This document shows positions 4,869 through 17,978 of a DNA stretch of 64,000 nucleotides, one piece after another. Where the stretch lies: the NCBI RefSeq assembly GCF_007859755.1, contig NZ_SJPF01000006.1:186010-250009 (forward strand), given 5' to 3'. Source of the stretch: Blastopirellula retiformator. GTDB lineage: Bacteria; Planctomycetota; Planctomycetia; Pirellulales; Pirellulaceae. The notes under the pieces were generated by a model. That model had not been told where the DNA came from, searched no databases, and saw only the letters and a list, made by a program, of their open reading frames with translations. The position numbers were made by a program, and so were the translations under genes. The stretch's first letter is position 1; every line of letters begins with the position of its first letter.

Positions 4869-6641
4869 CTAGAAAATGATGGTCTCGGAGATCGAAATGC
4901 CGTCGCGGCGATAGATCTCGGTCTCGGAGAAGTTGATCACGCCCAGCGCCTCAAAAAAGCTCCGCTCGCTCGTCTTCCGCAAGTAGCGGAGCCCGAAACC
5001 CCAGACCGGATCGCCGGTCGGCGCCTCGAAGGCGATTTCGGGAATGATCGACTCATCCTCGTGATGGCGGAAATATTGCACGCCGAGCGCGACGCCGGCG
5101 TTCGGCCCGACTTGCCGTCCCGAGGCAATCTGCACCAGCGGGTCGACCTCAAACGCGGTGCGCAAACGGTTGTAGTTGCCGCCGCCGGCCGGGTTCCAAC
5201 CGTCTCGGGCATAAAACGCGTTGCAGTAGTAAACGCAATGATCGATGCCGAGCACTTCGTGATCAAAGTAGCGGGTCAGGTTGCTTTCCAGCACGAACAG
5301 CTGTCCCTCGCCGATGCCTGCCTGGTCGCCGAACTTGAACATCGCCCGGCCGGTCAGCGTGACCGGTCCATAAAACTTGGTGCGGCTATAAGCGAGGAAC
5401 TGTTGATTGCGGCCGGGGGCGTCGGGCGCGTTGAGCGACAAGGCGCTAAACTCGTGGAATACCCGGTTGTAGTCGGCCGAGACATTGACGCCGAACAAAC
5501 CGGAGTCGGGATCGGCCGTGTTGTTGACGTCGGTCGCCGCGTAAATTCCTTGGACGTTGATGTTGCTGATGTTGCCAAGCAAGGTCGTGTTCTTGTTGAC
5601 GACGACTCCCAGCATCTCGTCATTCATCAACAGCCCATTGTGCAGCGCGAACGGAAACCGCCCGGCGGTGACAAAGATGTCGCGGACGGCGAACGGACTG
5701 AAGTACCCGCCAAACATGCTGGCGAGTTCTCCTTCAAACCAATACCGCGTCGGTTCGCCGGTCGAGTTGTCGATATAGCCGGCCGGATCATTGAAGCGAT
5801 AGTACGAACCGCCGGTGTTCCCTTTACCGATCGGACGAAACTGCAGGTGAAAGCGCTCGGTCCCGGTCAGTTGCAAATCGAAGTCGGCGATCAACTGATG
5901 ACCGATCCCGTCTTGTCGGTTGGTTCCTTGGCGATACGCCAGGGCGACAACCTCGTAGCTGCCGTAACCGACGAACCGCGGCTCCCAGTTGTTGTAGCCG
6001 CGGAACCAGGTCAGATCCCACACCTTGATCGGATCATTGCCGAGGAACTGCGCGAAGTAAGTCAGCGGCAGCGGCGCAACAAAGTTCTCCGGCAACCGCA
6101 GGTACTCGTAGTGATCGTCGTCCGCTTCGGTCGGCCAGCCGAGATGATCCCCTTCCGGACAGTAGAGATACGAACCGCCATGGTTCCACAGCTCTTCTTC
6201 TAGCGGCGGCAGTTCGATATCGTCAGTCGGGTCAGGCGTATCGATCGACTCCGGCAGCGGCGGAATCGACGTGTGGAAAAACTCATCGGCCGGCGGCAAC
6301 AGCGCTTCGGTCGGCTTCTTGGGATTGGGCGCAAACATCGCCACGTCGGTCCGAGCTCGATAGTTGCTGGGCGCATCGAGATGAACCGGAGGCAGCAAAC
6401 GAACCGGGGCGCTGTTCGCGAAGTCGTTTGCCGGCTGCTCCACTTCCCAGTGCCGCGTCTGCTGGGAACGGCTCAGCGATTCGCTCTGGCGACCACGCAC
6501 CGGATTGATCGGGTTCGCCTTTTCGACCGCCCAACCAGGCAGCGGCGCCGGAACTTGCGCAAACGCATCGCTCGCTAGCGGCGACATGCCAGCTGCGGCC
6601 AATAGCGCGGCAATCCACTTTCGACTCCAACCAGTGCTCAC
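4869..6641 (-). CDS. Outer-membrane beta-barrel (porin-like) protein coupled to a hexaheme cytochrome
   Basis: 590 residues. I place the start at GTG 6641 because GAGGTGA lies 5 nt upstream and the GTG overlaps the TGA stop of the upstream cytochrome gene (GTGA). The N-terminus is then a signal peptide, with the hydrophobic stretch WIAALLAAAGMSPLASDAFA. About 170 Pro-rich linker residues follow. From about 190 on, alternating amphipathic strands rich in Tyr, Phe and Gly continue to a C-terminal aromatic residue (ETIIF), typical of outer-membrane barrels. No heme motifs occur in it. Translational coupling suggests that the two products work together, possibly as an outer-membrane porin-cytochrome conduit, though this is an inference. 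It could also be an unrelated porin. Confidence 0.7.
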   Translation of the reverse strand: MSTGWSRKWIAALLAAAGMSPLASDAFAQVPAPLPGWAVEKANPINPVRGRQSESLSRSQQTRHWEVEQPANDFANSAPVRLLPPVHLDAPSNYRARTDVAMFAPNPKKPTEALLPPADEFFHTSIPPLPESIDTPDPTDDIELPPLEEELWNHGGSYLYCPEGDHLGWPTEADDDHYEYLRLPENFVAPLPLTYFAQFLGNDPIKVWDLTWFRGYNNWEPRFVGYGSYEVVALAYRQGTNRQDGIGHQLIADFDLQLTGTERFHLQFRPIGKGNTGGSYYRFNDPAGYIDNSTGEPTRYWFEGELASMFGGYFSPFAVRDIFVTAGRFPFALHNGLLMNDEMLGVVVNKNTTLLGNISNINVQGIYAATDVNNTADPDSGLFGVNVSADYNRVFHEFSALSLNAPDAPGRNQQFLAYSRTKFYGPVTLTGRAMFKFGDQAGIGEGQLFVLESNLTRYFDHEVLGIDHCVYYCNAFYARDGWNPAGGGNYNRLRTAFEVDPLVQIASGRQVGPNAGVALGVQYFRHHEDESIIPEIAFEAPTGDPVWGFGLRYLRKTSERSFFEALGVINFSETEIYRRDGISISETIIF

Positions 6642-8611
6642 GGAGTCACCTCGATCACGCCATTCCACGAATCGATGACGACAATCTCCAGCAGATGCTT
6701 TAGATGCGGCGTACCGATGTGATCCAGCAGCGTGGGAGGAAGGTGGCGGAAGTTCAAACGGACGTCGACCGTGTAGACGCCGGGGCATGGCGGCACAAAC
6801 TTGTAGGTCTGACCCCGGGTCGCCAGCGGCGGCAAGCTTCCCTTGGCGATCCGGAACGTGCCGGGACGACCAAACGACGCCGACAAACCGTTGTTCGGAC
6901 GCAGCACGTTCAGCGGCAGGATGTTGCGATTGACCGATAACACGACCGTCCGATCGGTCCCCTTGTTCGACAGGGCGACAAACTTGTTCTGGAAGTTGAG
7001 CAAGTCGCGGTCGTAAGGAATCTCGCCGGTCAGCACCTGGTGGCTATGGTCATCACGCAGGTCGGCGTTCTTGTCCAAGTCGCCGGAAGCGAAGACGACG
7101 CGTCCTTGTTGATCATGGACCGTGATCGCGACCCAGACCTGACGCTCGGCGGTGAAGCCGGTCGGCAGACTGTGCCCCGCCATGATGCTTTCGACATCAA
7201 CGCGCACCGCCGTCTTCTTGCCAACTTCGGCACACTGCGGCGAATCGACATGGATCACCGCGGCGTTCTTCAGCACTTCGTACCGCTTGGCGTCGGCGAT
7301 CTCCAGCGAGCGACGATTCTTCTTTCGCAGCGCCGTCAACGATTCTTTCTGGTACGGCGTCAGGTTGTTCCAGTCGCGGTAGTCGGTTTCGTACATCCAG
7401 TCGAGCTTCTCCGGAAACTCCGTATCCGGCAGCAGCGAATAGTCAGGCCCCGCGAACGTATGATCGGTCAGGTGACGCAGCGGCAGGTGCGGGTCTTTGA
7501 CCCCGGGCAAGATCGCCGCAAAGCCGAGCGGACGATCGCAGTCAGCGATCGGCTTGCCTTGGACCGGCCCCATGTGACACGACTGGCAGGTCTGTCCCAT
7601 CTTGGCGGCCGGGCTGTTTTGCCATTCGCTGAACGCCTCTTCCAGGCGAACGCCGTCGGCGCTGGTCACGTCATGGCACTCGCCGCAGAACTGCGACGAC
7701 TTCATGTAAGGGAAATCGCCCGAGGGATGCGTCCCGGTCGTCGGTCCGGTCGGCGAATCGTCAAACGGACCAAACATGCAGGTATCGAGCAGACCGCCCG
7801 GCTGTACCGGCACGCGGCCCGACGCTTTGTAATGCACGGTGCTGCGGCGATGGCAGGTGATACAGGTCACCCCTTCCAGCGAAACCCGCGAGCGATGGAC
7901 GTTGCGGGTGCTGCCGGTTTCGCCCAGGGCAATACCGATCGGCGTATGGCAACGGGTGCAGAAGGTGCCGATGGTGCCGCCGGTCCGTTCGATCAGCGTC
8001 AGCGTAAACGCTTCAAAGATCGGGCTCTGCTGCCCGTAGGCGTGCATCGACCGCGACCATTCGTCGTACTGCTTGGGATGGCATTCTTTGCACTGCTGAG
8101 CGCTGGGGAAATCCATCTCGGTGATCGGCGGCTTGCAGTGCACCGGCAGCGTGAACTCAAGGGCGCCATTGGTGATCCAGCGATTGATGATTTCCAACTG
8201 CCCGGCGGCGAGCCATTCGAGCTTCTCCGGCGGCATCTCCGGAGTGCGGGGAGCGAGCGCTTTGGGATTCTGGTGCACGTTCCAGTTGACGTACTCCCAC
8301 AGCATCGAATCTTTCGGCTTGCCGGGCACAATCAGCTTCTGCCCGTACATCTCGGCGTCGATCATCGCCTGGTAGCTGGAGAGGTCAATCCGTTCCGTAT
8401 TGGGACGATGACAGGCGGCGCATTTGTTCTGCAGAATCAGATAGACGTCAGGCCAATCCGGATCATACGGATAGTTTCCTGGCGTTACCAAATGAGGCAC
8501 CGCGACCGCTTCCGGCTGTCCGGGAACGATGAGTGAAAGTACGGCGATCGTACCAACTAGCGCCGTCACCAGCGCAAACGCGCGGCGGCTTTGTGCAACC
8601 CGTTGCAACAT
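6638..8611 (-). CDS. Exported hexaheme c-type cytochrome
   Basis: 657 residues from ATG 8611, chosen because a signal anchor (residues 11-30) then follows at once; a longer reading from 8773 would add a region without export signal. Six CXXCH heme motifs are visible: CAACH (64), CKECH (174), CTRCH (218), CITCH (250), CGECH (309) and CQSCH (342). The second is followed by an EWSRSMHAYG stretch seen in cytochrome c554-type multihemes. The first motif sits in a planctomycete cytochrome-domain setting (LILQNKCAACHRPN). Residues after about 450 form a beta-rich domain without hemes. It should move electrons in the periplasm; donor and acceptor are unknown. Overlaps the barrel gene by 4 bp. Confidence 0.85.
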   Translation of the reverse strand: MLQRVAQSRRAFALVTALVGTIAVLSLIVPGQPEAVAVPHLVTPGNYPYDPDWPDVYLILQNKCAACHRPNTERIDLSSYQAMIDAEMYGQKLIVPGKPKDSMLWEYVNWNVHQNPKALAPRTPEMPPEKLEWLAAGQLEIINRWITNGALEFTLPVHCKPPITEMDFPSAQQCKECHPKQYDEWSRSMHAYGQQSPIFEAFTLTLIERTGGTIGTFCTRCHTPIGIALGETGSTRNVHRSRVSLEGVTCITCHRRSTVHYKASGRVPVQPGGLLDTCMFGPFDDSPTGPTTGTHPSGDFPYMKSSQFCGECHDVTSADGVRLEEAFSEWQNSPAAKMGQTCQSCHMGPVQGKPIADCDRPLGFAAILPGVKDPHLPLRHLTDHTFAGPDYSLLPDTEFPEKLDWMYETDYRDWNNLTPYQKESLTALRKKNRRSLEIADAKRYEVLKNAAVIHVDSPQCAEVGKKTAVRVDVESIMAGHSLPTGFTAERQVWVAITVHDQQGRVVFASGDLDKNADLRDDHSHQVLTGEIPYDRDLLNFQNKFVALSNKGTDRTVVLSVNRNILPLNVLRPNNGLSASFGRPGTFRIAKGSLPPLATRGQTYKFVPPCPGVYTVDVRLNFRHLPPTLLDHIGTPHLKHLLEIVVIDSWNGVIEVTP

Positions 8612-11375: not shown

Positions 11376-11804
11376 GACGGCAAATCATCTATTGGGTAGG
11401 CGGGAATCGGGGAGCGAGTCGGCGTCACGACGGGGAGTGCCTCTTCTCCGTTAGACGACGCTGGTCAGCATTTCGTTTTCTGCCGACCTCCCCCCTGTCC
11501 TCCGGGGTGGTCGGATTTATCCAACTTTATCATATTCGGCGGCGCCATTTCCTCGCAAAAGCATACGGCGAGGACAAGACGACTATTTCTTTTTTGCCAA
11601 AGTATCTTCGTTGGTTTCGCACAAACTTTTCTATAAAACTGCCATAATCCACTTTACCGCCTTTCCCCGGGCTGACGAGGCCGCCAGTTCGCAATCAAAG
11701 TTTTCAGAAAACTATCCGGCCAGCTAAGTCGTCATGGTTGTTGATTGGCAGAATGCGGAGCAATCGGGCGCCATCCGCAAGTGACTAAGCATCAGGTTAG
11801 GAAT
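11376..11804. promoter_or_regulatory. Divergent intergenic region between the J-like gene and the alpha-2-macroglobulin gene
   Basis: About 430 bp without a gene. The part from 11520 to 11660 is clearly more AT-rich than its surroundings and contains promoter-like AT boxes (CTATAAAA near 11631, CATAAT at 11643-11648). No good -35 partner stands at a standard distance, so I cannot fix a promoter. The macroglobulin Shine-Dalgarno (AGGTTAGGA) lies at about 11794-11802. Confidence 0.4.
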
Positions 11805-14800
11805 ATGAACAAGAGATTCGCCGTAAGGTTTCGCTTTGTCGAGTTTGCACTGGTACTGGCTGTCGTCGGCGTCATCGGCGCCATGCTGGCCGGACAATTA
11901 GGAACGCTCGCCGTGCAGAACCAACCAACCGACTTTGCGCAGCTCGACAAACTCTATCGGCAAGGCAACTACAAAGAAGCCTACGAGCAAGGTCGCCCGC
12001 TGTTTCTAAACGCGGATAGTAGTCCTGACGAGATTCGCACGCATCTCTACCAGATGACCAGCGCCCTGCAGCAACTGGCCCGCGTCGAAGAGCAAGCTGA
12101 CTTTCTCGAAGAAGTGGTCGCCGCTCATCCCGAAAAGTGGCAGGTGCTGGCTGGCGTCGCCGCGCAATATCAAAACATTCAACACTACGGCCAGATGATC
12201 GACAACAAGTTTGTCCGCGGCGCCCGTCGCAATCGCGGCCAATGGACCAACAGCATCGAGCGAGATCGCGTCCGTGCGTTGCAGTTGTACGAACAAGCGC
12301 TGCCGCTGGTCGCCAAAGAAAACAAAAAGGGACAAGTCGCCAACTTCTATAACGAACTTGCCCAGTTTGTGATGAATGGTCGCGGCGGCGGCCAGGCCTG
12401 GCGTTTGCAATACCTGACGGCGACCAACGAGCTGCCCGACTACGAAGAAGGCTATGGTCGCGGCGCCCCGACGCAGGGCGCGCCGGTCGACGCCGACGGC
12501 AAGCCAATCTACTACAGCGAACCGAAGTCATGGCAAGAGGCGACCAACGACGGCGAGCGTTGGCGGTGGGCCCTGGCGATGATGGTCGAAAATCAACCGA
12601 ACATGAAGGGGAACGCGCTGCATCAACGGGCCAGCTTCGCCTCTTCGCAATTTGGCGTGCAAACGCTACAGCAGTTCGGCTTTTTCCCCCGCGGCGGTCA
12701 ACAGCAAGACGACGACGCCGATACCGGCACGTTCGCCCTGCACACGCTGAAAGAAAATGAAACGATCGCTCGCCTGGCCAATGGGATCCAACGTTTCGAG
12801 ATCCCCGACGAATTCAATCACATCGCGCTGTTCAAGGAAATCTTGAGCGCCAAAGACGACGGCTATGTCGAAGCGAGCTACAGCCATCTCGCGAACAACT
12901 TTGAGAACCGTCGCCAATATCCCCGCGCTGCGCAGCTCTGGCGCGATGCGATCGAAAAATTTGGTCCCGGCAACAACAGCTATCGCCAGCGGCAGCTCGA
13001 TCAAATCATCGGCAACTGGGGACAGTTCCAAGGGGGCGAAGTCGCCGCCGCCGGACAAGGCGCCCAGCTGCAGTACCTCTTCCGCAACGGCAAGAAGGTC
13101 AGCCTGACCGCGTCGCCGATCGACGTCAACAAATTGCTGGCCGACGTGAAGAGCTATCTGAAGTCAGGCCCCAACCGGGTCGAATACCAACGGATGAACA
13201 TCCAGGACCTTGGTTCGCGGATCATTCATCAAGATGGGGGCAAGTACGTCGGCAAACCGATCGCCGAGTGGAGCGTCGACCTGGCCCCGCGTGAGAATCA
13301 TTTCGACAAGCGAGTGACGATCGCCGCCCCGCTGCAAAACGCCGGCGCCTACCTAGTCAAGGCGCAGATGGAAGATGGCAACCAGGTCAGCATCGTCGTC
13401 TGGATCGCCGACTCGGTCATCCTCGCCAAGCAATTGGATCAGGCGAAGCTCTACTACGTCGCCGATGCGGTGACCGGCAAAGCGCTGCCCGGCGTCAACG
13501 TCGAGTTCTTCGGCTATCGCCAAGACAACATTCGCGGCACGAACCGCTTTAACGTCACCACCAAAAACTTCGCCGCCAACACCGACGCCAACGGTCAGAT
13601 CACGATCGACAAGTCGAAGGTCGACGACCGGATGCAGTGGATCGTCATGGCCCGGCCAGAAGGGCACGGTCTGGCCTACATGGGCTTTGACGGCATCTGG
13701 TTCGGCCAGCGTCACGATGCCGAGTACAACGCCACCAAAGCGTTTCTGATCACCGATCGCCCCGTCTATCGTCCCGACCAGACCGCCAACTTCAAGTTCT
13801 GGCTCGGCCACGCTCAGTACGACAAAGAAGGCCCGAGTCCGTTCGCCAATCGCCAGTTCCGCGTGCAGATCAACGATCCGCAAGGGGAAAAGGTGTATGA
13901 GAAGCACCTGACCACCGACGAGTTCGGCGGCATGGTCGGCGAGTTCCCGATTCCGGCCGACGCCAAGCTCGGCTCGTATCAGATTTACACCGATCATGGC
14001 GGCGGCTCGTTCCGCGTCGAGGAGTACAAGAAGCCGGAATACGAAGTCAAAGTCGACGCCCCGACCGAACCGGTCATGCTGGGCGAGAAGATCGAAGCGA
14101 CCATTACCGCCAAGTACTTCTTCGGCGCCCCGGTCACCAACGCGACCGTGAAGTACAAGATCACCCGTTCCGACTATCGCCAAGATTGGTATCCAATCGC
14201 CCCGTGGGACTGGTTCTACGGCAAGGGCTATTGGTGGTTCGCGTATGACTACGACTGGTATCCTGGCTACCGCAACTGGGTCGGTTGCACGCGGCCCTAT
14301 CCGTTCTGGTTCCCCTTCCCGCGAAATCCACCAGAGCTGGTCGCCGAACAGGAAGTCGAAATCGGCGCTGACGGAACCGTCAAGGTCGAGATCGATACCG
14401 AATTGGCCAAAGCGATTCACGCCGACAAGGATCACAAGTACTCGATCACCGCCGAAGTGCGTGACGAGTCGCGCCGCACCATCGTCGGCAGCGGCGATGT
14501 GCTGGTCGCCCGCGAGCCGTTCAAGGTCTTTACCTGGCTCGATCGCGGTTACTACCAAGTCGGCGATACGATCCAGGCCAACATCAAAGCCCAAACGCTC
14601 GACGGCAAACCGGTCTCTGGCCCGGCCGAGCTAGTCCTTTACAAGATCACCTACGACGAAAATCGGAAGCCGATCGAAACCAAGGTGCAAACCTGGAATC
14701 AAGAGGTCGGCCCCGAAGGTTTGAGCAGCCTGCAGATCGAAGCCTCGGCTGCCGGACAATATCGTTTGTCGGCCAAGGTGACCGATTCTAAAGAACATGA

Positions 14801-17800
14801 GATCGAAGGCGCCTTCATCTTCACCGTGATCGGCGCCGGCTTCACCGGCAGCGACTACCGCTTCAACCACTTGGAGTTGATTCCGGACAAGAAGGACTAT
14901 CAGCCGGGCGACACCGTCAAGCTGCAGGTCAACACCGATCGTCCCGGCGCCACCGTGCTGCTCTTCGTTCGCCCGACCAACGGCGTCTATCTGCCGCCGC
15001 AGCGTTTGCAATTGGCCGGCAAGAGCCAGGTGGTCGATATCGCCGTCGTCAAGAAAGACATGCCGAACTTCTTTGTCGAAGCGGTTACCGTCTATGACGG
15101 CGCCGTCTACCAAGAGACGAAGGAGATTGTCGTGCCGCCCGAAAAGAGGATCATCAACGTCGCGGTCGATCCTTCCTCAAAGGAGTACAAGCCCGGCGAA
15201 GAGGCGACCGTCAAGATCAAGCTGACTGACGATACCGGCGAACCGTTCATCGGTTCGACCGTGATCTCGATCTACGACAAGGCGGTCGAGTACATCTCCG
15301 GCGGCTCGAACGTCGGCGACATTCGCGAGTTCTTCTGGAAATGGCGCCGCCATCACCACCCGTCGACCAGCGACAGCCTTTCCAAAGCGTCCTACAACCT
15401 CAATCCGCCTGACAAACCAGGCATGGGCTTCCTTGGGGTCTTTGGCCATAGCGTCGCCGACGAACTCTCAGACGACTCCGGCATGGATAAGCAGATGATA
15501 GCCGAAGGGATGGCCATGGGGGGTGGACGTGCCATGCCGATGGCGGCCGGCGCTCCCGGCATGATGATGGCCCGCGGCGCGATGGCGAAGTCATCGAACC
15601 TGTTCGCCGCGGACGCCGTCGCCGAACTGGAAGCGGCGCCGGCCGGCGGAGAAGCGCAGCAACAAGCCGCGCCCAACGTCGAGCCGTCGGTCCGCACTAA
15701 CTTTGCCGACACCGCCCTGTGGGTTGGCGCCCTGACGACCAACAAACAAGGGGAAGCCGAAGTCTCCTTGAAAATGCCCGAAAACCTGACCACCTGGAAG
15801 GTCAAGTCGTGGGCGATGGGAGACGGTACCCGCGTCGGATCGGGTGAGGCCGAGGTGGTTACCACCAAAAACCTGCTGATCCGTCTTCAGGCGCCGCGTT
15901 TCTTCGTCCAGACCGACGAAGTGGTCCTGTCGGCCAATGTTCACAACTACCTGAAAAACGCCAAGGCGGTGCAAGTTTCGCTCGAAACGCCCGGCGGCTT
16001 GCTCGACCATCTTGATCCGTCCGAGCAGACGATCAAGATCGAAGCCGGCGGCGAACAGCGCGTCGATTGGCGGGTAAAGGTTCTCTCGGAAGGAACCGCC
16101 GTCATTCGCATGAAAGCGCTGACCGACGAAGAGTCGGACGCCATGGAGATGAGCTTCCCGGTCAAGGTCCATGGCCTGCTGAAGACCGAATCGTGGGCCG
16201 GCACGGTTCAGCCGGAAGTCGACAACGCCTCGCTCACGGTCACCGTGCCGCAGCAACGTCGCGTCGACGACAGCCGCCTGGTGGTTCGCTACACGCCGAC
16301 TTTGGCCGGCGCCATGGTCGACGCGTTGCCCTATATGGTCGACTACCCGTACGGCTGTACTGAGCAAACGCTCAACCGCTTCCTGCCGACGGTGATCACG
16401 CAGAAAGTGCTGCTCGATATGCAGCTTGATCTGAAGTCGATTCAGGAGAAACGCAACAACCTGAACGCCCAAGAGCTGGGCGATCCGGCCGAGCGTGCCG
16501 CCCAGTGGAAACGTTTCGAGCGGAACCCGGTCTTCGAGATGGAGACCGTTCGCAAGATGGTGACCGACGGGGTGCAGCGTCTGACCGACATGCAAAACTC
16601 CGATGGCGGCTGGGGCTGGTTCTCCGGCTACAACGAACGGAGCTACCCGCACACCACCGGCGTGGTCGTGCATGGTTTGCAAGTCGCCCAGGCCAACGAT
16701 GTGGCGATTGTGCCCAACGTGCTAAACAGCGGTTTGGATTGGCTCACCAGCTACCAGGCGGCCGAAGTCACGAAGCTGCAAAACGCCGACGGCGACAAGA
16801 AACCGCGTAAGCAGAAGGCCGACAACACCGACGCCTTCGTCTACATGATCCTGGTCGACGCCGGTCGAGAAAACCGCGCCATGCGTGATTTCCTCTATCG
16901 CGATCGAACCAGCCTGTCGGTCTACGCCAAGGCGATGTACGCCCTCGGTCTGCACAAGATGCAGGACGCCGACAAGCTGGCGATGCTCGAGCGGAACCTC
17001 CAGCAGTACCTGGTGACCGATCTCGAAAACGAAACTGCCTACCTGAAGATGCCGGAAGACAACTACTGGTGGAACTGGTACGGCGATCCGATCGAGGCCA
17101 ACGCCTACTACCTGAAGCTGCTGACCAAGACCGATCCCAACGGCAAGACCGCTCCCCGAATGGTCAAGTACTTGCTCAACAACCGCAAGCACGCGACCTA
17201 CTGGAAGTCGACCCGCGACACTTCGCTCTGCATCGAAGTGATGGCCGACTACCTCCGGGCGACCGGCGAACTGAAGCCGGAGATGACGGTCGAAATTTGG
17301 GTCGACGGCCAGAAGAAGGAAACGACCGAGTTCACCAAAGAGAACCTGTTCACGGTCGACAACACCTTTGAACTCGTCGGCAAGAACGTCACCGGCGGCG
17401 ATCACAAGATCGAGATCCGCCGCCAAGGGGAAGGCGCCGTCTACTTCAACGCCTACCTGACCAACTTCACGCTGGAAGACTTCATCACCAAGGCCGGGCT
17501 CGAAGTCAAAGTCCAGCGACGCTTCTACAAGCTCGTGCCGGAAGAAAAAGAAGTCAAAGTCGCCGGCGACCGTGGTCAGGCGATCGACCAAAAGGTCGAG
17601 AAGTACCGCCGCGAACCGCTCGAAACGGGCGCCCAGCTCGTCAGCGGCGACCTGGTCGAAATCGAACTCGTGCTGGAGTCGAAAAACGACTACGAGTACG
17701 TCATGTTCGAGGACCAAAAAGCGGCCGGCTTCGAAGCGGTCGACCTCCGCAGCGGCTACGACGGCAACAGCCTCGGCGCCTACAAAGAACTCCGCGACGA

Positions 17801-17978
17801 CCGCGTCACGTTCTTCGTCCGCCAACTACCCCGCGGCCGCCACAGTTTGACCTACAAACTACGAGCCGAAATCCCCGGCAAGTTCAGCGCCCTCCCGGCA
17901 ATCGCCGAAGCGATGTACGCACCGGAACTGGTCGGGAACTCGGATGAGATGAAGATCTCGATTGTGGATCAAGAGTAG
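11805..17978 (+). CDS. Bacterial alpha-2-macroglobulin-like protease trap
   Basis: 2057 residues. ATG 11805 was chosen over 11745 for its AGGTTAGGA site and because a signal anchor (about 11-31) then starts immediately. An N-terminal helical, TPR-like part (to about 450) precedes a chain of MG beta-sandwich domains. A Gly/Ala/Met-rich bait-like segment lies near 1220-1275. After it come the A2M signature region (TALWVGALTTNKQGEAEVSL) and the thioester motif GCTEQ with Cys near 1518, intact. Next is the helical toroid with DGGWGWFSGY, then a receptor-like C-terminal domain. Bacterial A2Ms trap foreign proteases in the periplasm or on the cell surface through bait cleavage and thioester bonding. 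No penicillin-binding protein 1C gene (a common partner) is adjacent. Confidence 0.92.
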   Translation: MNKRFAVRFRFVEFALVLAVVGVIGAMLAGQLGTLAVQNQPTDFAQLDKLYRQGNYKEAYEQGRPLFLNADSSPDEIRTHLYQMTSALQQLARVEEQADFLEEVVAAHPEKWQVLAGVAAQYQNIQHYGQMIDNKFVRGARRNRGQWTNSIERDRVRALQLYEQALPLVAKENKKGQVANFYNELAQFVMNGRGGGQAWRLQYLTATNELPDYEEGYGRGAPTQGAPVDADGKPIYYSEPKSWQEATNDGERWRWALAMMVENQPNMKGNALHQRASFASSQFGVQTLQQFGFFPRGGQQQDDDADTGTFALHTLKENETIARLANGIQRFEIPDEFNHIALFKEILSAKDDGYVEASYSHLANNFENRRQYPRAAQLWRDAIEKFGPGNNSYRQRQLDQIIGNWGQFQGGEVAAAGQGAQLQYLFRNGKKVSLTASPIDVNKLLADVKSYLKSGPNRVEYQRMNIQDLGSRIIHQDGGKYVGKPIAEWSVDLAPRENHFDKRVTIAAPLQNAGAYLVKAQMEDGNQVSIVVWIADSVILAKQLDQAKLYYVADAVTGKALPGVNVEFFGYRQDNIRGTNRFNVTTKNFAANTDANGQITIDKSKVDDRMQWIVMARPEGHGLAYMGFDGIWFGQRHDAEYNATKAFLITDRPVYRPDQTANFKFWLGHAQYDKEGPSPFANRQFRVQINDPQGEKVYEKHLTTDEFGGMVGEFPIPADAKLGSYQIYTDHGGGSFRVEEYKKPEYEVKVDAPTEPVMLGEKIEATITAKYFFGAPVTNATVKYKITRSDYRQDWYPIAPWDWFYGKGYWWFAYDYDWYPGYRNWVGCTRPYPFWFPFPRNPPELVAEQEVEIGADGTVKVEIDTELAKAIHADKDHKYSITAEVRDESRRTIVGSGDVLVAREPFKVFTWLDRGYYQVGDTIQANIKAQTLDGKPVSGPAELVLYKITYDENRKPIETKVQTWNQEVGPEGLSSLQIEASAAGQYRLSAKVTDSKEHEIEGAFIFTVIGAGFTGSDYRFNHLELIPDKKDYQPGDTVKLQVNTDRPGATVLLFVRPTNGVYLPPQRLQLAGKSQVVDIAVVKKDMPNFFVEAVTVYDGAVYQETKEIVVPPEKRIINVAVDPSSKEYKPGEEATVKIKLTDDTGEPFIGSTVISIYDKAVEYISGGSNVGDIREFFWKWRRHHHPSTSDSLSKASYNLNPPDKPGMGFLGVFGHSVADELSDDSGMDKQMIAEGMAMGGGRAMPMAAGAPGMMMARGAMAKSSNLFAADAVAELEAAPAGGEAQQQAAPNVEPSVRTNFADTALWVGALTTNKQGEAEVSLKMPENLTTWKVKSWAMGDGTRVGSGEAEVVTTKNLLIRLQAPRFFVQTDEVVLSANVHNYLKNAKAVQVSLETPGGLLDHLDPSEQTIKIEAGGEQRVDWRVKVLSEGTAVIRMKALTDEESDAMEMSFPVKVHGLLKTESWAGTVQPEVDNASLTVTVPQQRRVDDSRLVVRYTPTLAGAMVDALPYMVDYPYGCTEQTLNRFLPTVITQKVLLDMQLDLKSIQEKRNNLNAQELGDPAERAAQWKRFERNPVFEMETVRKMVTDGVQRLTDMQNSDGGWGWFSGYNERSYPHTTGVVVHGLQVAQANDVAIVPNVLNSGLDWLTSYQAAEVTKLQNADGDKKPRKQKADNTDAFVYMILVDAGRENRAMRDFLYRDRTSLSVYAKAMYALGLHKMQDADKLAMLERNLQQYLVTDLENETAYLKMPEDNYWWNWYGDPIEANAYYLKLLTKTDPNGKTAPRMVKYLLNNRKHATYWKSTRDTSLCIEVMADYLRATGELKPEMTVEIWVDGQKKETTEFTKENLFTVDNTFELVGKNVTGGDHKIEIRRQGEGAVYFNAYLTNFTLEDFITKAGLEVKVQRRFYKLVPEEKEVKVAGDRGQAIDQKVEKYRREPLETGAQLVSGDLVEIELVLESKNDYEYVMFEDQKAAGFEAVDLRSGYDGNSLGAYKELRDDRVTFFVRQLPRGRHSLTYKLRAEIPGKFSALPAIAEAMYAPELVGNSDEMKISIVDQE

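Follow-up and report, generated by a model that had tools for sequence, protein, structure and literature searches.

Among described systems, the nearest in content to the gene pair reported here is PCC4, a porin-cytochrome electron conduit proposed from genomics (He et al., 2017; PMC5566968), whose subgroup II is said to include Planctomycetes. As described in that paper, PCC4 is marked by a porin and a 5-heme periplasmic cytochrome, together with 4-heme and 10-heme periplasmic cytochromes and an inner-membrane protein that has five transmembrane (TM) helices and two WX3HX13H motifs; in subgroup II an iron-sulfur (Fe-S; PF13247) gene lies upstream of the one for the inner-membrane protein. 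In the text of PMC5566968, PCC4-type clusters are a genomic proposal without experimental support. The c552 cytochrome, Geobacter ExtKL and cytochromes of cable bacteria have separately been grouped as pentaheme cytochromes with an immunoglobulin (Ig)-like domain (PMC11976967). As for the barrels of other systems, MtrB, MtoB and PioB are modelled with 26 strands and Cyc2 with about 17 in the account of PMC10654088. Here we analyze a 64,000-nt stretch of Blastopirellula retiformator DNA (GCF_007859755.1, NZ_SJPF01000006.1, positions 186,010-250,009 of the forward strand; hereafter the window), in which a hexaheme cytochrome gene is directly followed by the gene for an outer-membrane beta-barrel. 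A first-pass annotation, made from the sequence, had suggested that the two might form a porin-cytochrome conduit, a kind of complex known from other phyla (MtrAB type). We find that the pair is a reduced variant of the proposed porin-cytochrome kind.

The cytochrome and barrel genes are an inherited unit across much of the phylum Planctomycetota. We sampled 343 genomes of the phylum and scored only the best 4 or best 3 first-look candidates of each, so that the match lists are incomplete. They hold 53 barrel matches from 50 genomes, and a cytochrome lay directly upstream in 50 of the 53. Two of the three barrels without a cytochrome sit at contig ends (G171 and G166), and the third is on contig C37 of G219. 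Seen from the other side, 85 cytochrome loci were listed in the same sample, 60 of them over 150 bits. A downstream barrel was found in 55 of these 60 (50 from the phylum match count, plus five by locus reading: G345, G206 C61, G338, G359 and G405), four ran into a contig end (G392 C153, G320 C36, G166 C436 and G399), and one, G219 C167, had no barrel in the 2.5 kb up to the end of its contig. The other 25 cytochrome loci, which had no barrel match, scored 91-145 bits over the heme core only and were taken for other multiheme families.

Two further collections gave a similar picture. In a family sample, all 64 cytochrome matches listed at E<=1e-30 were compared with the barrel matches listed, and a barrel accompanied 59 of the 64, with one more recovered by locus reading (G016 C38; 60 in total); of the cytochromes left, that of G095 is cut off by the end of its contig, the cytochrome of G030 is in two pieces of which C189 is one, and G079 and G094 had no barrel match. 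A search of genome records returned 28 loci, and in all 24 belonging to the window pair's own clade (clade A, defined below; L032-L055) the barrel came after the cytochrome without a change of strand; a Rhodospirillales metagenome-assembled genome (MAG; L056) also has the pair. Two of the remaining loci had a weak cytochrome match and no barrel (L057, L058), and one had neither by tblastn (L059). The expectation that the two proteins belong together was therefore borne out by conserved gene order, by the 50 of 53 phylum barrels that are paired and by congruent trees; a conserved separation of the genes in relatives, which the first-pass annotation had named as one observation that would count against it, was not seen, and the pair stays together.

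We compared trees of the two proteins over 36 pairs (A, 6; B, 13; C, 17), with clade A sampled by six pairs. Two unpaired members, the L048 cytochrome and the L049 barrel (unpaired by the choice of rows), were dropped, and so were the extra tandem cytochromes and L117 and L119, whose barrels had escaped ORF calling. The cytochrome tree and the barrel tree resolve the same three clades, A, B and C (support 0.976-1.0). Distances in the two trees were strongly correlated (Mantel r = 0.93 over 36 pairs; shuffle maximum 0.217 in 2000), a value that shared ancestry alone also lifts, and the correlation was likewise above shuffles within clade B (0.943; shuffle maximum 0.813) and clade C (0.84; shuffle maximum 0.486). 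In G345, which has one clade-B and one clade-C pair in tandem, each barrel groups with the cytochrome directly upstream of it. The window pair belongs to clade A, clade B is mostly Pirellulaceae, and clade C comprises several Planctomycetota families along with L056. Genes flanking the pair differ between the clades.

Some loci depart from the simple two-gene layout. One (L112, 2447-9974) is a cytochrome-barrel-cytochrome-barrel tandem drawn from two clades, and in three others two tandem pentaheme genes precede one barrel (L113, 3207-7483; L114, 5023-9212; L131, 6370-10772). The Rhodospirillales MAG carries a clade-C cluster (L056, 198-8074), and its barrel shares 36-46% identity with 14 clade-C barrels of planctomycetes; the cluster may be there through horizontal transfer or through mis-binning. 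When this barrel was used as a query against plasmids, no match was found.

Clade C connects the pair to a larger redox system. Further redox genes were found near 15 of the 17 clade-C pairs, and six clusters hold a full set (L113/L141, L114/L142, L125/L143, L131/L144, L128/L147 and L100/L148). This set consists of a FAD/NAD/2Fe-2S reductase anchored in the membrane, a 4-heme gene of the c554 type (present twice in 2 of the 6 clusters), a cyclic nucleoside monophosphate (cNMP)/4Fe-4S gene ahead of the gene for an inner-membrane protein in which the WX3HX13H motif occurs twice, and a cytochrome with 10 or 11 hemes. The cNMP/4Fe-4S gene matched PF13247 in both clusters scanned (L056 and L125), and the inner-membrane proteins of the six clusters had 3-5 TM helices by a crude hydropathy count. 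Set beside PCC4 by its published description, the six clusters agree with subgroup II in content, order, heme counts and motifs. The remaining clade-C clusters are partial, are cut by a contig end, or carry 15- or 17-heme genes instead. The first-pass annotation had held that the pair resembles no known system in detail; that judgement did not survive, since PCC4-like clusters hold its relatives and the cytochrome core is of the pentaheme c552/ExtKL type.

The PCC4-like system of Planctomycetota occurs either as one cluster (L141-L144, L147 and L148; clade C) or as two loci (L158-L162; clade B). In the two-locus form, cytochrome and porin are at one locus, and the Fe-S, inner-membrane and 10-heme genes are at the other. 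Near clade-C pairs we also observed 17-heme and 15-heme cytochromes (L126, 8480-10516; L153, 12959-14995; L152, 309-2444).

We next consider the genes of the inner module, which were sought in 29 chosen genomes: 13 with clade-A pairs only, 9 of the 13 clade-B genomes and 7 clade-C genomes (of which G284 also has a clade-A pair). The inner-membrane gene was present in 9 of 9 clade-B genomes, at a locus apart from the pair, where it sat with Fe-S and 10-heme genes in 5 of 5 loci read. It was also present in 6 of 7 clade-C genomes, one being the source of the query. The same search found it in none of the 13 clade-A-only genomes, the window genome among them (genomes at least 97% complete). The Fe-S gene was matched strongly in all 9 genomes of clade B and in 5 of the 7 of clade C, and no PF13247 Fe-S gene was matched in the window genome at E<=1e-10. 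A 4-heme homologue was not found in the window genome either, by one query with no positive control, and no 4- or 10-heme gene lies beside the pair, as judged by eye. Because the inner-membrane gene is there in clades B and C and was not found in clade A, the window pair corresponds to the outer end of the system without its inner end, and the inner half appears to have been lost from this organism. A window-genome match to the FAD/2Fe-2S reductase (26% identity, one internal stop) was not taken as a homologue.

The features of the two genes are collected in Table 1. The cytochrome has, as first annotated, a signal sequence and six CXXCH motifs (residues 64, 174, 218, 250, 309 and 342), all six invariant across 23 aligned cytochromes; the signal ends in an AVA/V-like cleavage site, judged by eye. 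Its N-terminal PSCyt1 domain scored 25.8 bits, over the curated cut-off of 22, and among the loci read this heme is restricted to clade A, clades B and C being without it. The invariant Met126 is the likely sixth ligand of the PSCyt1 heme. For the rest of the protein, the best solved relative by profile is the pentaheme c552 of Thermochromatium tepidum (5ze8; E=7.6e-10). The best Foldseek match of the cytochrome model was the same structure (E=1.5e-6), from a low-confidence model that is poor in the heme part, and this result was used for the beta domain only; with a predicted local distance difference test (pLDDT) value of 55, that model is of too low quality for hemes or a docked position to be placed. 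The five core CXXCH motifs, His190, His384, His480 and Met347 were present in 42 of 42 aligned members. Judging by this alignment, an invariant His would be the obvious partner for three of the five core hemes; the remaining two may have Met as ligand, a ligand that varies, or an open site. The beta domain also has a DxDxNxDxxD loop that looks like a calcium site and may bind calcium. The cytochrome alignment excludes L042 and L053, in which the cytochrome frame is broken, and the barrel alignment excludes L042 and L046.

The window cytochrome thus shares a five-heme core followed by an Ig-like domain with the pentaheme family (c552 5ze8, Geobacter ExtKL, Gsu2801 and the pentaheme cytochromes, PHCs, of cable bacteria, as presented in PMC11976967), and differs from it in the extra PSCyt1 domain and in the barrel gene directly downstream. 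Membership of ExtKL itself (NF040886) was rejected at 47.3 bits against a curated 250. By published description, Geobacter ExtI-ExtKL differs from the window pair in gene order, in its rhodanese gene and in selenocysteine (PMC5877670; PMC6148476). At the aligned place of the MccSep selenocysteine (GHxxPxGU) the sequences have Phe, Ser, Leu or a gap, the alignment being very weak there.

The barrel protein begins with a hydrophobic signal and ends in Phe, which is invariant in 23 aligned sequences, and it had no sequence match in Pfam, NCBIfam or PDB. Modelled as a single chain with AlphaFold2, residues 222-590 were well predicted (ten-residue block means of pLDDT 56-95), with 20 predicted strands, 16 of them of at least 10 residues. 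VIA-align placed the model closest to solute porins and the alginate exporter (Z = 26.3 for MOMP, ~24-26 for OprD/Occ and ~25 for AlgE). MOMP, OprD/Occ and AlgE are 18-stranded barrels. The earlier suggestion of an outer-membrane barrel with a signal and a C-terminal aromatic residue was upheld by AlphaFold2, Foldseek, VIA-align and the invariant Phe, and the protein is predicted to be a porin-sized barrel of the MOMP/OprD/AlgE fold. Ahead of it, a segment conserved in clade A (residues 144-185) is a candidate for contact with the cytochrome.

The predicted size of this barrel bears on how the pair could work. A barrel of 16-18 strands at the usual tilt has a computed lumen of 16-26 Å before loops, compared with 34-42 Å for 26 strands as in MtrB, so a pentaheme protein would not be sheathed inside it. 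The barrel had no match to MtrB_PioB (PF11854) at E<=0.1, and none was found in the window genome at E<=0.001. MtrAB, MtoAB and PioAB share with the window pair the general idea of an outer-membrane barrel with a multiheme cytochrome; theirs is a 26-strand barrel with a 10-heme wire, whereas the window has a porin-sized barrel with 5+1 hemes. Barrel size and the missing MtrB_PioB match led us to reject a sheathed conduit of the MtrAB type as the leading reading, and MtrAB-type packing also sits poorly with a cytochrome signal that looks cleavable and has no flagged lipobox. No weight was given to the absence of MtrB and other folds from the VIA-align list. The Verrucomicrobia porin-multiheme clusters, from a related phylum, are likewise a proposed porin-cytochrome pair; compared by description, they differ from the window pair in having eight hemes and 20 or more transmembrane motifs (PMC5615132).

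Table 1. Features of the cytochrome-barrel gene pair, in window coordinates.
Feature	Position	Strand	Basis or remark
Hexaheme cytochrome gene, 657 aa, ATG start	6638..8611	-	ORF list; Pfam PSCyt1, Cytochrome_C554, Cytochrome_C7
Predicted Sec signal peptide, residues 1-38	8498..8611	-	By eye; window protein without flagged lipobox
N-terminal PSCyt1 one-heme domain, residues 64-113 matched; CAACH 8408-8422	8273..8422	-	PF07635
Pentaheme core, residues 170-350; CXXCH 174, 218, 250, 309, 342	7562..8104	-	Motifs, Pfam, 5ze8 profile
C-terminal Ig-like beta domain, ~residues 450-655; GHxxPTG and DxDxNxDxxD	6647..7264	-	Partly confident strands, Foldseek, conservation
4-nt stop/start overlap GTGA; putative translational coupling	6638..6641	-	Junction sequence
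Outer-membrane beta-barrel gene, 590 aa, GTG start	4869..6641	-	ORF translation; no Pfam/NCBIfam/PDB sequence match
Pre-barrel segment, residues 144-185, LPPLEEELWNHGGSYLYxPEGD...LRLPE, conserved in clade A	6087..6212	-	Alignment; low model confidence
Barrel domain, residues 222-590; C-terminal Phe	4872..5978	-	AlphaFold2, Foldseek, VIA-align

Taken together with the clade-B and clade-C systems, these features led us to a specific proposal, which we judge to have about an even chance of being right: of a PCC4-type system, this lineage has kept the outer-membrane end alone, as a pair whose cytochrome docks to the barrel and links the cytochrome c pool to small redox compounds. The cytochrome would be exported and loaded with its six hemes, and would then dock at the periplasmic mouth of the porin-sized barrel, without insertion and with its pentaheme core turned toward the barrel. 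The N-terminal PSCyt1 domain would replace the missing inner module (a haem-b-like inner-membrane protein, an Fe-S protein and 4- and 10-heme cytochromes) by trading electrons with the ordinary periplasmic cytochrome c pool. We suggest this switch of partner because the pair was kept while the inner module was lost, and because the extra one-heme domain is found in clade A alone. Small redox-active compounds entering the barrel might then be oxidised or reduced at the docked hemes, and electrons could pass in either direction. Like PCC4, the window pair has a porin adjoining a cytochrome with a 5-heme core, and its relatives stand in PCC4-like clusters. It differs from PCC4 in that the window genome has porin and cytochrome only, the inner-membrane and Fe-S genes not having been found, and in the extra N-terminal heme domain. 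That fusion to PSCyt1 is what plugged the outer unit into the cytochrome c pool, after which the inner module was dropped and a two-gene minimal route for extracellular electron exchange remained to Blastopirellula-type bacteria, is a history that we regard as doubtful.

Several observations weigh against the proposal of an outer end kept alone. On the side of co-inheritance, the distance correlation within clade A (0.951; 6 pairs) was not above shuffles (0.953), and G219 holds a lone barrel (C37) and a lone strong cytochrome (C167; L164) besides a normal pair (C21); as these genes are on separate contigs, the pair may be apart in G219. On the side of structure, docking is argued from a cytochrome whose AlphaFold model has a pLDDT of 55 and contains no hemes, barrel residues 21-137 and 150-216 fall under pLDDT 50, and Foldseek gives the barrel moderate TM-scores, 0.34-0.43 by query and 0.48-0.63 by target. 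A loose lipobox pattern occurs in the cytochromes of four relatives, so solubility may differ among members. The likeness to PCC4 was established against its description rather than by aligning a published PCC4 sequence, PCC4 is itself a genomic proposal in the text of PMC5566968, and electron transfer by the window pair is likewise argued from genes. No other such redox genes were found near the clade-C pairs of G345 and G196. As for the loss of the inner module, the searches of clade A covered the inner-membrane and Fe-S genes and did not seek the 10-heme gene, the search did not find the inner-membrane gene of G302, and weak partial Fe-S matches appeared in 3 of 13 clade-A genomes (G019, G172 and G436; E 1e-18 to 5e-13), in each case unaccompanied by an inner-membrane match. 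Finally, PSCyt1 and the absence of the inner module are tied by correlation only.

A true trans-outer-membrane conduit, in which part of the cytochrome such as PSCyt1 enters the barrel and hemes span the membrane to minerals or electrodes, is the alternative that survives best, and we consider it rather unlikely. It draws on the relatives in PCC4-like clusters, which are proposed as conduits for extracellular electron transfer (PMC5566968), and on the proposed precedent for a narrow one-heme barrel in Cyc2, the porin-cytochrome fusion of Fe(II) oxidisers modelled with ~17 strands (PMC10654088). The pentaheme core would nevertheless not fit into the lumen computed above, the barrel is kept in clades B and C although PSCyt1 is missing there, and no further CXXCH gene adjoins the window pair in the open reading frame (ORF) list, read by eye. 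Of the conduit first suggested here, a porin-cytochrome ancestry and the match of the relatives' clusters to a proposed conduit stand; sheathing is probably wrong, the barrel being predicted too narrow. A narrow barrel is half of the second observation that the first-pass annotation had named against a conduit, the other half being a soluble cytochrome.

We think it improbable that the barrel is instead a solute porin serving a periplasmic multiheme oxidoreductase, such that a substrate (for example an oxyanion) enters and the cytochrome converts it with no need of direct contact. Such a division of labor between a substrate porin and a cytochrome is one hypothesis for Geobacter ExtI with ExtKL, and mutation of extI impairs the reduction of selenite and tellurite, as reported in PMC5877670. 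The barrel fold here does match solute porins and the alginate exporter, the core is weakly related to ExtKL/MccSep and MccA, and three invariant non-CXXCH His for five core hemes (42 sequences) leave room for an open site. Against this, the residue aligned with the MccSep selenocysteine is never Cys, although the alignment is very weak there, the ExtKL model gave 47 of 250 bits, and tight one-to-one co-inheritance suits a complex better than a loose pathway. That the genes are mere operon neighbours with unrelated functions is largely refuted and highly improbable: within the genus the pair does sit on the same strand between a DnaJ-like gene and aroA (B. marina), so that operon membership alone proves little, yet it is intact in 24 of 24 clade-A loci and 50 of 53 phylum barrel matches listed while its flanks vary by clade, and the trees are congruent.

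Returning to the outer end kept alone, the relatives display three states (one cluster, a split system and an orphan pair), from which it can be seen what a lineage may lose; these states point to the porin and the pentaheme cytochrome as the likely functional core. We found no description of a stand-alone porin and pentaheme pair in the open literature searched, supplements being outside that search. The two-gene form is present in the cultured B. marina DSM 3645, and the porin and pentaheme half is thereby testable without the other parts. If the pair does exchange electrons with the outside, it would be an unrecognised redox contact of these planctomycetes with their surroundings. B. marina DSM 3645 is also the nearest named relative found (cytochrome 85% identity, barrel 75%), and other genomes of the same genus reach up to 91% identity.

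The overlap of the two genes, pointed out in the first-pass annotation, was confirmed, and the arrangement goes beyond chance, given the invariant heme motifs, the invariant barrel Phe and the conserved gene order. The coding-strand sequence of the junction is GAGGTGACTCCGTGAGCACT, in which the cytochrome TGA and the barrel GTG share GTGA, and a Shine-Dalgarno-like AGGTGA just 5' of the barrel GTG, read by eye, is a possible ribosome-binding site. An overlapping start in the barrel frame was present in 6 (L032, L038, L039, L048, L051 and L054) of the 22 relatives checked among the 24 fetched for clade A, and the other 16 were without it; the 4-nt overlap is not universal in clade A.

Elsewhere in the window genome there are three more multiheme genes (L138, 5180-6943; L139, 6039-7877; L140, 5606-8047), with 4, 8 and 8 CXXCH motifs respectively, and no barrel of the pair's family was seen beside them in the stretches read. 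The window itself also contains a very long ORF of 2077 aa (11745-17978), which from its look we take to be possibly of the alpha-2-macroglobulin type.

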